Part shown: piece by piece, positions 29,708 to 35,130 of the stretch | Position numbering within the stretch: the stretch's first letter is position 1 | Layout of the letters: every line of letters begins with the position of its first letter | From: Sedimenticola selenatireducens | Lineage (GTDB): Bacteria; Pseudomonadota; Gammaproteobacteria; Chromatiales; Chromatiaceae | Direction of reading: 5' to 3' | NCBI RefSeq assembly: GCF_007625115.1 | Contig: NZ_VMNH01000016.1 | Location: forward strand, 62,001 to 126,000 | DNA: 64,000 nucleotides | Translations under genes and position numbers: made by a program | Notes under the pieces: model-generated | What the model was told of the DNA's origin: nothing | Seen by the model: the letters and a program-made list of their open reading frames with translations, nothing else | Database searches by the model: none

Positions 29708-30097
29708 ATGAGTGAAGCAACCACAAACTTGCTGAGAGAGGAAGAACTCAGTCTGACTGAGGCCGCTCAAGGCAAAATGGCTGAGCTGGTTGGACAGGTA
29801 GAAGAAGAGGTCAAGGGTATCCGTGTGTACGCCTCTCCAGGCGGTTGCAGCGGCATCAGTTTTGGTATGACCTTTACTGATCAGCTTAATGACAACGATT
29901 ATGTCCTGAATTCGACGGGCTTTGATGTCATTGTCGATGGTGACACGATGCGCCACCTCGAGGGTGTGCAAATTGACTTTGTTGATCAAGGTAATGGTAA
30001 CGCGAGTTTTGTTTTTAACAACCTCAAGCCTGCTGAGAGCAGCAGTGGTTGTGGTGGTTGCAGCTCCAGTGCTGCACAGGGTGGCGGTTGTTCCTGA
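29708..30097 (+). CDS. IscA/HesB-family iron-sulfur carrier with unusual cysteine tail
   Basis: 129 residues. The core is A-type: first conserved cysteine in SPGGCSGISFGM (Cys 47) and DFVDQGNGNASFVFNN before the C-terminal loop. Typical A-type proteins end C-x-C-G near residue 100-110. Here the tail is SSSGCGGCSSS (Cys 115 and 118) followed by GGGCS (Cys 128), so spacing and number of cysteines differ. It is therefore not an orthodox IscA, SufA or ErpA; a bona fide erpA is at 34343. No other isc or suf gene is adjacent. A GGAG ribosome site and a strong terminator make it a single-gene unit. Confidence 0.85.
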   Translation: MSEATTNLLREEELSLTEAAQGKMAELVGQVEEEVKGIRVYASPGGCSGISFGMTFTDQLNDNDYVLNSTGFDVIVDGDTMRHLEGVQIDFVDQGNGNASFVFNNLKPAESSSGCGGCSSSAAQGGGCS

Positions 30098-30682: not shown

Positions 30683-31381
30683 CTATTTGGGGCTGCTGTT
30701 CGCATCATGATAGAGCGTGCGGAGTATATCCCGTCGCGTCGTTCCAGTGGGTGATCCATGGTTCGGTGCATGCACACTCTTTTGACTGCCAAAGAACTCC
30801 CCAATTGCCCGGAATACACGTTTAAGTGCTCGCCACAGCTTGGGGAGCAGCCAAATAATCAGGAGTAATGAGAGTGCCAGTCCTGCGACGAACAACCAGG
30901 GGTAATGCAGTGAAGCCCAAAGTCCGCCAATCACCACCAGATCCTCTGTAATTGAGGCTGTCCAGTTGGAAAAGGGTTCAGGTGAGGTGTTAATCAGAAC
31001 CCGGGTGCCCGTCTTTGTGAGATGGGTGGTTGCGGCCAGACTGCCTCCGATCAGTAGGGCGGCAAACTCAGCCGCCTGACTGACGTCGAGGCCTTCAGCC
31101 ATGCCTGCGGCCAGTACGGCACCTGCCGGGATGCGGATAAAGGTATGCAGTACATCCCATCCTGTGTCTACTCCGGGTGTCTTATCTGCAACAAACTCAA
31201 CCATGTACATGAAGCCTGCAGCGGCAAGCACCATCGGGTTGCTGAGCAATTCCAGGCCCGGCGGCAGTGTCACGTCCCCTGTCATTCCAAGGTAGCCGAG
31301 AACCAGCACGGCTGCATAGAGATTGATACCCGAGGCCCAGGCTACGCCGAGTGTCAGCGAGATGAGTTCAACAGTTTCCAT
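30683..31381 (-). CDS. DUF4126-family membrane protein
   Basis: 232 residues with five or so hydrophobic segments and a basic C-terminal tail. GVAWASGINLYAAVLVLG at the N-terminus, EFVADKTPGVDTGWDVLHTFIRIPAGA and the Gly-rich LIGGSLAATTH region match the DUF4126 pattern. Function unknown. It lies upstream of hemJ on the same strand with a 46-base gap and may be co-transcribed with it. The C-terminal 45 residues (HAPNHGSPTGTTRRD) look disordered. Confidence 0.8.
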   Translation of the reverse strand: METVELISLTLGVAWASGINLYAAVLVLGYLGMTGDVTLPPGLELLSNPMVLAAAGFMYMVEFVADKTPGVDTGWDVLHTFIRIPAGAVLAAGMAEGLDVSQAAEFAALLIGGSLAATTHLTKTGTRVLINTSPEPFSNWTASITEDLVVIGGLWASLHYPWLFVAGLALSLLLIIWLLPKLWRALKRVFRAIGEFFGSQKSVHAPNHGSPTGTTRRDILRTLYHDANSSPK

Positions 31382-31637
31382 TCACATAATCCTTTCTTTG
31401 CAGCAAGTGTCGTCAGCTTATTGGATGACTGAATATGGATTCAGTTCCTACTTGATTTACGACAGATCCAGAGCGTTTATGCCCCTGACCCAATCGAGAT
31501 TAACTGCGTTCAATTGGGTGCCTATCGACAAGTCAGTATGCCACTTTACGTTTCATTATCCCAATATCCTCATTTGCATAGAGTGTTTTGAATTTGTTGA
31601 TTGGCTTGGCTATCGATATGAAAAGTAAAGTAATTAT

Positions 31638-31666
31638 TTGACCTACTTAAAATATGGATATATAGT
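31638..31666 (+). promoter_or_regulatory. sigma-70 promoter of candidate small RNA
   Basis: TTGACC (31638-31643) and TATAGT (31661-31666) are separated by exactly 17 bases; each hexamer matches consensus at five of six positions. Predicted start near 31673. Confidence 0.75.
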
Positions 31667-31672
31667 CGGCTG

Positions 31673-31771
31673 CATTCAAGGATTTGTGACGCTTGTTGAT
31701 GAACTCGGCAGGTAAAAGGAATTAAAAGAAATTGTCACATTTAGCTTAAGCGGCCTGCGGGTCGCTTTTTT
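31673..31771 (+). ncRNA. candidate small RNA, about 100 nt
   Basis: The interval between the promoter at 31638 and the terminator at 31748 is about 100 nt, with no plausible coding frame. TGTGAC (31685-31690) can pair with GTCACA (31734-31739), closing a long-range stem, and two AGGA motifs lie between or near the arms. The terminator gives a 7-bp GC-rich stem and six U residues at the 3' end, as in Hfq-binding RNAs. I do not recognise the family. It could instead be the attenuated leader of argC, 163 bases downstream. Confidence 0.55.
31748..31771 (+). terminator. rho-independent terminator of candidate small RNA
   Basis: AGCGGCC pairs with GGTCGCT (one G-U) around TGCG, followed by T6. Confidence 0.8.
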
Positions 31772-31933
31772 ATTGTTGGACTGTTTTCACTTTAATGGTT
31801 TACATCTTTAGATTTTTCGCTTAGCACCGTATGATTGACTTCCTTTTTTGACCCTGTGCTGATCGATGTGGCGTGCGAGTGCGTTGTCAGCAATAAGCAC
31901 GGGGAGTGACATATCCGGAGTGGAATTGAAGCG

Positions 31934-32962
31934 ATGGTAAAAGTAGGTATTGTAGGTGGAACAGGCTACACCGGCGTCGAACTACTGAGGCTTTTGGCAG
32001 GGCACCCTGAAGTTGATGTGGCGGTTATTACTTCGCGTGCTGAGGCCGGCCGCCCCGTTTCAGATATCTATCCAAACCTGCGAGGCCATTTCGATATCCC
32101 CTTTACCGAGCCAGAACTGGATCAGCTGAAGTCCTGTGATCTGGTGTTTTTTGCAACGCCTAATGGAACAGCCATGAAGATGGTGCCTGAGCTGTTGGAT
32201 GGCAACTGTAAGGTCATTGATCTGGCGGCGGACTTCAGGATCAAGGATCTCGCTGTTTGGGAGCAGTGGTATGGTATGCCACATGCCTGCCCAGAGCGGG
32301 TGGCCGAAGCGGTCTATGGCCTGCCAGAGGTGAATCGTCAGGCCATCCGGCAGGCCCGATTAGTGGCCAATCCGGGTTGTTATCCCACGGCCACCACATT
32401 GGGCTTTCTGCCTCTGGTAGAAGCGGGGTTGGTTAATCTCACGGGTCTGATTGCAGATTGCAAATCCGGTGTGAGCGGGGCAGGTCGTGGTGCCAGTGTC
32501 GGTATGCTGATGGGTGAGGTCGGCGAGAGCTTTAAGGCCTATGGGGTGCCGGGGCATCGGCATATGCCAGAGATCAAACAGAATCTATCTGTTGCTGCGG
32601 GGCAGGATGTGGCGCTCACATTTGTGGCACACCTTGTACCCATGATTCGGGGTATTCATTCCACTCTTTATGCCACAATAACCAGTGATGTGGATCTGCA
32701 GGCGATGTATGAGCAACGCTACGCCAACGAACCCTTTGTGGATGTATTGCCTGCAGGATCTCATCCCGAAACCCGCAGTGTGCGCGGTATCAATCACTGT
32801 CGTATGGCCATACATCGGCCACAGGGTGGTGACACAGTGGTCATCCTTTCGGTGATTGATAATCTGGTCAAGGGTGCGGCGGGTCAGGCGGTTCAGAACA
32901 TGAATATCATGCTTGGATTAGACGAGACCTTGGGTTTACAGGCAGTAGCGCTGCTTCCTTAG
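31934..32962 (+). CDS. argC: N-acetyl-gamma-glutamyl-phosphate reductase
   Basis: 342 residues. NADPH-dependent reduction of N-acetylglutamyl phosphate to the semialdehyde in arginine synthesis. N-terminal nucleotide fold [18 protein letters not shown]; catalytic Cys 149 in ANPGCYPTA; the PGHRHMPEI segment supplies the catalytic His region. A GGAG ribosome site precedes the ATG by about 13 bases. No other arg gene is adjacent; the coiled-coil and bactofilin genes follow in the same direction. Confidence 0.95.
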
Positions 32963-34293: not shown

Positions 34294-34342
34294 TGAGTAA
34301 TATGCTGATTTAGCGTGTATTTGTGAGTATCTGGAGTTGGAA

Positions 34343-34696
34343 ATGAGTGGTATGCAAGCTGAAACCGAAAGCCCGCTGGTGTTTACCAATGCGGCAGCCA
34401 CTAAGGTGGCAACCCTTATCAAAGACGAGGGCAATCCGAACCTGATGCTTCGGGTATTCATTCAGGGTGGCGGTTGTTCTGGCTTTCAATATGGCTTCAG
34501 TTTTGATGAGGAGATGAAAGAGGGTGATACCCGGGTCGATACGGATGGTGTTGCCATGCTGGTCGATCCTATGAGTCTCCAGTATCTGATGGGGGCTGAA
34601 GTGGATTACACGGAGAGTCTCCAGGGATCGCAGTTTGTAATCCGCAATCCCAATGCATCAACAACCTGCGGATGTGGTTCGTCGTTCTCAGTCTGA
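34343..34696 (+). CDS. erpA: iron-sulfur cluster insertion protein ErpA
   Basis: 117 residues from the ATG at 34343, which has GGAG seven bases upstream (an in-frame TTG at 34337 overlaps that site). A-type carrier delivering [Fe-S] clusters to apo-proteins, including those of isoprenoid synthesis and respiration. The three cluster ligands are in place: Cys 45 in [11 protein letters not shown] and Cys 109/Cys 111 in [11 protein letters not shown]. It has its own promoter and terminator. Confidence 0.95.
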
Positions 34697-34767: not shown

Positions 34768-35130
34768 TTAGTTCGCGGGGACCGCTGGCGCTACAGGGGG
34801 TGCTGGATAACCATAGGGTGCATAGCCACCGTAGGGTGCTCCATAACCACCGCCATAGGGATAACCACCGTAGCCACCGCCATAGGGATAACCATAGCCA
34901 CCATAAGGATAGCCATAGCCACGTCCGTAGCCATTACCATAACCGCTGCCGCGACCACTAAAATTCATATTAAAGTCACCGGAGCCATCACCCCAGCCAT
35001 CGCCAAGACCGTTCCAAGGACCGCCACCCCAAGGGCCACCGCCCCAAGGACCGCCGCCCCACCATGCGGATGCAGAGGCAGATGCGACCAGCAAGGCTGC
35101 TACAGCAGCTGCTTTTATAATAGTTTTCAT
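34768..35130 (-). CDS. sulfur globule protein (SgpA/SgpB-like), Gly/Tyr-rich, secreted
   Basis: 120 residues: a Sec signal peptide (cleavage near SASA-WW), three GGGPWG repeats, an acidic block [19 protein letters not shown], then Gly-Tyr-Pro repeats ([18 protein letters not shown]) and a Pro/Ala tail. This composition and the GDG-GDFNM block match the structural proteins that coat periplasmic sulfur globules in Allochromatium and related sulfur oxidisers. It points to intracellular sulfur storage. The gene has its own strong promoter and a terminator. Other Gly-rich secreted proteins are an alternative, but the order of blocks favours Sgp. Confidence 0.85.

Follow-up and report, generated by a model that had tools for sequence, protein, structure and literature searches.

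The intergenic region between a DUF4126 gene and argC in the window (the whole stretch of 64,000 nt of DNA that was analysed) carries a small RNA gene that almost certainly belongs to a genuine new small-RNA family. The initial annotation, made from the letters alone, had proposed a small RNA candidate here that fits no protein and no recognised RNA family. Comparison across 22 copies in genomes of the host family, a group of related gamma-proteobacteria, bore this candidate out, and it is this comparative evidence that identifies the element, which matches no protein and no Rfam family, as a small structured RNA gene. The conserved, covarying RNA with its promoter and terminator is supported by the data, and from here we infer its transcription, Hfq binding and action in trans. 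The features in the window are as follows.

30683 to 31381, minus strand: DUF4126 protein, divergent upstream neighbour (PF13548, E 2.8e-58)
31638 to 31666, plus strand: sigma-70-type promoter of the small RNA (TTGACC at 31638-31643, 17-nt spacer, TATAGT at 31661-31666)
31673 to 31774, plus strand: small RNA gene with a predicted transcript of about 100 nt (from alignments; covariance-model match at 31674-31774)
31685 to 31691, plus strand: stem P1, 5' strand TGTGACG (two-sided change in 3 of 7 P1 pairs)
31692 to 31712, plus strand: hairpin P2, variable in sequence and covarying (two-sided change in 5 of 6 pairs)
31713 to 31732, plus strand: A-rich single-stranded joining strand, candidate contact for Hfq or a target
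31733 to 31739, plus strand: stem P1, 3' strand TGTCACA (from folding and covariation)
31748 to 31774, plus strand: intrinsic terminator with an 8-bp stem, 4-nt loop and T-run (from scan and conservation)
31807 to 31835, plus strand: probable argC promoter, TTTAGA, 17 nt, TATGAT (from alignment, scan and TATGAT counts)
31934 to 32962, plus strand: argC, N-acetyl-gamma-glutamyl-phosphate reductase (Pfam semialdehyde dehydrogenase domains)

The start of the predicted RNA was placed from the -10 hexamer and its end from the T-run, and the name argC was taken from the initial annotation, in agreement with the Pfam domains. The promoter described there was found with 10 of 12 matches and the 17-nt spacing, the terminator as a stem at 31748-31767 followed by TTTTATT, and the internal stem as TGTGAC (31685-31690) pairing with GTCACA (31734-31739). 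From one sequence alone, the promoter and terminator are at chance level and the case would be weak. A scan of a 1.5-kb region gave two promoter-like sites and one terminator-like site, with 1.7 and 1.5 expected from shuffles, respectively, and the predicted RNA fold had a z-score of -2.75, with 2 of 200 shuffles equally stable. A search of Rfam 15, the check for known RNA families, gave no match in the window at the gathering score (the nearest local match, at E 1.4, is an unrelated family). The element was judged to stand above chance because of the comparison with related genomes.

With window 31600-31790 as the blastn query against 55 genomes, matches at E 1.1e-11 or better were obtained in seven of the eight other genomes of the genus; the eighth (G005) is without the element, and matches to argC and DUF4126 are also absent from it at the thresholds used. 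Own copy included, eight of nine genus genomes carry the element, in all eight cases between a divergent DUF4126 gene and argC, and their alignment shows TTGACC, TATAGT, both P1 strands, AAGGAAT and the terminator conserved amid variable sequence. A covariance model built from these eight genus copies only (R1) was searched in 210 genomes of the family and gave six loci in other genera at E ≤ 5.6e-5, argC lying downstream in five of them and the sixth (L048) being cut by the contig end 243 nt past the RNA. Outside the genus, R1 copies occur in genera g9, g10, g16 and g80 and adjoin argC except L048; the locus in G221 (L054) scored E 0.0023. When R1 was applied to 40 regions upstream of argC, most of them picked for DUF4126 synteny, four matched, adding genera g12 and g81. 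A second model built from 19 copies (R2) found one clear copy each in 22 of the 210 family genomes at E ≤ 4.3e-10 (next best 1.4e-4): eight in g1, the window genus, six in g81, two each in g10, g16 and g80, and one each in g9 and g12; the other 188 family genomes gave no clear match to R2. Because 19 of these 22 copies had been used to build R2, the independent support comes from the six loci that R1 found in other genera.

Beyond these copies the matches become weaker. R2 gave nine matches other than the own copy at E ≤ 1e-4 in a class sample of 369 genomes, of which three weaker ones from two other families (G392, G044 and G372) adjoin argC, those in G044 and G372 also standing beside DUF4126; the remaining six, with neither argC nor DUF4126 within the available flanks, were treated as noise. 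The same was done with 22 family genomes having R2 matches of 1.4e-4 to 0.01, which were inspected in part. G007 and G228 each showed a second, weak R2 match (0.005 and 4.5e-4, respectively), and two of the weak family places, both in G059, lie upstream of argC but on the opposite strand and correspond to the terminator that separates an Fe-S carrier gene from argC. Among 80 argC loci of named genomes, there were 23 R1 matches with E no higher than 5, the best at 0.027, and the five alignments inspected rest mainly on the terminator. R2 gave three matches up to E 1 on 31 of those loci, the best being the borderline L069 (E 0.0022), and a single place, L150 (the same as L202; E 0.25), on 40 further loci that were without an R1 match or overlapped such loci. 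L069 (1250-1380; MAG contig JAOUJT010000080.1) has a promoter-like site, a short RNA and a terminator before argC and is possibly a more distant copy of the RNA. L150 (G071, genus g53) carries at about 1490-1610 a different-looking promoter (TTGACT, 17 nt, TATATT), a short RNA and a terminator with its T-run starting about 21 nt ahead of argC, and with an R2 score of only 13 bits it would be an independent or very diverged argC leader. Phage records contained nothing meaningful (best E 0.2). In a tree of 43 ArgC proteins, several deep branches of which are weak and for which the bootstrap has not settled, presence of the RNA is clustered, with four gains or losses and none of 500 shuffles as low. 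The element was not recognised among the matches listed in literature searches on argC leaders or riboswitches, DUF4126-argC, argC sRNAs, and Allochromatium or Thiodiazotropha/Sedimenticola sRNAs; excerpts of PMC3110155 and PMC4448311 proved irrelevant to it.

The promoter layout is strictly kept, as TTGAC, exactly 17 nt and a -10-like hexamer lie 1-8 nt before the model start in 21 of the 22 family copies, with a spacer of 18 nt in L002. A hairpin directly precedes the T-run in all 22, that of L054 having only 4 bp. The T-run reads TTTTTTATT in all eight g1 copies and TTTTCTTTT, broken by C, in all six g81 copies; this break may go back to one evolutionary event and so is a hint of a tie to argC rather than a test of it. 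Before the RNA promoter, at window 31610-31625, a block of CTAT, 4-5 nt and TGAA is present in all eight genus copies and is a possible regulator site.

The covariation check in related genomes that the initial annotation had suggested showed that the structure is kept by compensatory change, P1 and P2 covarying beyond controls. A 19-row alignment made to fit the structure has 91.6% of its cells paired; two-sided change is seen in 42 cells, where shuffled controls give 13.9 and slid controls 1-8. For P1 and P2 together, the model-fitted alignment gave 35 cells with two-sided change, compared with 11.9 in shuffles (0 of 500 as high) and 1-8 when slid, and a plain 15-row MAFFT alignment, made without regard to the structure, gave 12 against 5.8 (6 of 500 shuffles as high). 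A weaker measure of covariation found eight pairs with two-sided change against 5.6 in shuffles, 33 of 500 being as high. P1 appears in the best RNAfold structure of only 14 of the 22 homologues. In L005-L008, RNAfold instead pairs a 5' ATTCCTT or GTTCCTT within the first 10 nt with the internal AAGGAAT; being confined to these four copies, this pairing was rejected as a general alternative fold. The strand order in L005-L008 would permit it to form a pseudoknot with P1.

The A-rich strand is the most distinctive unpaired part of the RNA, with 57% A (25 homologues pooled); outside this strand, the A content is 18% (22 homologues of the family). Runs of A-R-N triplets within it average 2.64, barely above the 2.36 of shuffles, 107 of 2000 of which are as high, the rows being related. 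Hfq is encoded in the genome (PF17209, E 4.1e-30), and in the reading that we favour the RNA would probably bind it. The T-run of the RNA, six T and then ATT, is shorter than the seven or more T that excerpts of PMC5558911 give for the terminators of Hfq-dependent sRNAs. No match to the hexameric ArgR domain (PF01316) turned up in the genome of the window, the one genome tested. Some members of the genus carry, upstream of the RNA promoter, what we take by the ArgR-box consensus to be a box-like sequence; an ArgR box at this place was dropped as a candidate since PF01316 had not been found.

Across the family the RNA keeps company with argC, not with DUF4126. The next gene downstream on the same strand is argC in 21 of the 22 copies, the remaining copy ending at a contig edge. 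The upstream neighbour varies, being DUF4126 in some copies, an Fe-S carrier gene (PF01521) in L049 and a ClC-type channel gene (PF00654) in L222 and the borderline L069, and G224 has its DUF4126 gene on a different contig. The DUF4126-argC-bactofilin cluster of the window is flanked by two genes for Fe-S carriers (PF01521 in each; window 29708-30097 and 34337-34696), the former with a glycine/cysteine-rich tail, and a small ORF on the minus strand at window 34768-35130 has a signal-like start and a long Gly/Tyr/Pro-rich tail. Seven g1 genomes have 157-163 nt between the terminator and argC, and G006 has 319 nt; the distance is 150 nt in g16, 102 and 277 nt in g80, 134 nt in g9, 80 and 84 nt in g10, 50 nt in g12 and 13 nt in all six g81 genomes.

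Past the terminator, the genus alignment shows a second conserved block, CTTTAGATTTTTC, then CCGTATGAT, probably the promoter of argC. Where the RNA is lacking, TATGAT lies no more than 170 nt upstream of argC in 14 of 35 readable regions (shuffles predict 1.7); where it is present, the count is 9 of 24 (1.3 predicted), L222 and L212 being unreadable and several regions coming from one genus. Seven of the eight genus copies have TATGAT after the RNA within this distance, and L005 has one further off. Outside the genus, TATGAT follows the RNA in L049 and L228 and a looser TATNAT in L046, L050, L051, L226 and L069, neither form lies within 170 nt upstream of argC in L047 and L054, and TATGAT is absent from this distance in seven g81 and g12 regions; these hexamers partly support a putative argC promoter after the RNA outside the genus. 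In the window, the RNA is probably its own transcription unit, since a promoter lying past the terminator probably serves argC. The 13 nt in g81 leave no room for a promoter, so that transcription from the RNA promoter should run on into argC, which, judging from the layout, seems to depend on it, unless a promoter lies within the RNA, as the TATTAT inside the RNA of L196 might be. A similar dependence is possible in g12 from its layout and is not implied in the window genus. A transcript continuing into argC, which the initial annotation had counted against its candidate, is thus implied by the layout in g81, but the window argC has the probable downstream promoter.

Our best explanation, which we hold tentatively, is a new family of Hfq-type trans-acting sRNAs whose promoter also feeds argC by leaky read-through. 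An RNA of about 100 nt would start at a sigma-70-type promoter of its own and stop at the intrinsic terminator, and would fold such that P1 closes hairpin P2, the 20-nt A-rich strand joining P2 to the 3' strand of P1. It would regulate in trans in association with Hfq, and the A-rich strand and the U-tail would serve as contacts. The RNA would share a physiological response with argC, to whose transcript read-through of the terminator would add; in g81, such read-through would be the only visible route to argC, which begins 13 nt past the terminator.

The main rival is a conditional terminator of argC. The element would then be a cis-acting argC leader, its core of P1, P2 and the A-rich strand sensing a metabolite or protein and setting the passage of polymerase into argC, with the downstream promoter, where present, giving basal argC expression; we regard this as a real but doubtful possibility. 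It is consistent with a structured and conserved core, with argC immediately downstream in 21 of 22 copies while the upstream gene varies (constant adjacency being expected of a cis leader as well), with the short terminator-to-argC distances in g81, g12 and g10, and with the seven g81 and g12 regions from which TATGAT is absent. Against it, the consensus shows core and terminator as helices apart from each other, argC in the window probably has its own promoter, and folding without the 3' arm of the terminator yielded no recurring alternative pairing of its 5' arm. A riboswitch-type antiterminator was rejected on this last result; in single-sequence folding, a few copies (e.g. L048, L051, L195, L196 and L197) each show an alternative pairing of their own. 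A sensor leader whose core binds an arginine-pathway metabolite or protein, choosing between the terminated RNA of about 100 nt (perhaps also trans-acting) and read-through into argC, is in our view unlikely; if true, it would be an RNA sensor for a step of the arginine pathway in a genome without a PF01316 match.

Other readings are far less probable. The initial annotation had noted two AGGA motifs and hinted at CsrA; both motifs are present (31679-31682 and 31717-31720), but GGA is not kept outside the genus, and the hint did not hold up. Titration of CsrA/RsmA by the RNA through these motifs would agree with the two CsrA matches in the genome, with GGA at the second place in all eight genus copies and with a GGA slightly upstream of it, at the P2 edge, in 5 of the 14 non-genus copies. 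CsrA sponges carry several GGA in hairpin loops. GGA lies near the first place in 7 of the 22 family copies, is found at the aligned second place in none of the 14 copies outside the genus and is absent from the whole RNA in 6 of 22, and a CsrA sponge, which we consider highly improbable, was set aside on this GGA conservation although csrA is present. In favour of a short peptide gene or leader peptide in place of a noncoding RNA, many copies contain a frame of about 9-13 codons that opens with GTG or ATG, and Arg codons occur in some of these frames. By eye, the start in g1 differs in place and frame from that in g81, and where some copies have a stop in the conserved strand, L002-L004, L046 and L195 have CAA or CAG; a leader peptide, to which we give little credence, was rejected, as the frames are not conserved. 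An intergenic region without an RNA gene, in which promoter and terminator sites match by chance, would account for the site counts in the single sequence, and is contradicted because promoter spacing, covarying structure and terminator are conserved in 22 genomes of seven genera, which makes coincidence extremely improbable.

The element adds a covariation-supported small RNA family, unmatched in Rfam 15 and tied to arginine synthesis, in bacteria whose one tested genome gave no ArgR match. The lineages form a series that runs from a unit standing apart, 150-319 nt from argC, to an argC lying 13 nt behind a T-run broken by C, and offer a natural case for how the terminator of an sRNA becomes the expression control of its neighbour.

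Like the CsrB, RsmY and RsmZ RNAs, the element is a small RNA located between genes and, within the genus, carries GGA motifs; unlike in those RNAs, its GGA motifs are not kept and 6 of 22 copies have none. In amino-acid biosynthesis attenuators and riboswitches, a structured RNA followed by an intrinsic terminator stands upstream of a biosynthetic gene, and the element resembles them in having both upstream of argC. It differs from them in showing neither a recurring antiterminator pairing nor a known Rfam aptamer, and in the probable gene promoter past the terminator in the window genus. The closest published arrangement we found appears to be sgrS-setA of Escherichia coli, where, according to excerpts of PMC9765468 and PMC4509938, setA starts 27 bp after the sgrS terminator, is cotranscribed with sgrS and sees termination enhanced under stress. 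The likeness meant here is one of gene arrangement. Hfq binding and targets are putative for the present RNA, and argC differs in being a biosynthetic enzyme gene with a probable promoter of its own in the window. In both cases a protein gene directly follows, on the same strand, an sRNA gene that has a promoter and an intrinsic terminator of its own, and the distance from terminator to start is short, 27 bp in sgrS-setA, as given in the excerpt of PMC9765468, and 13 nt in g81.
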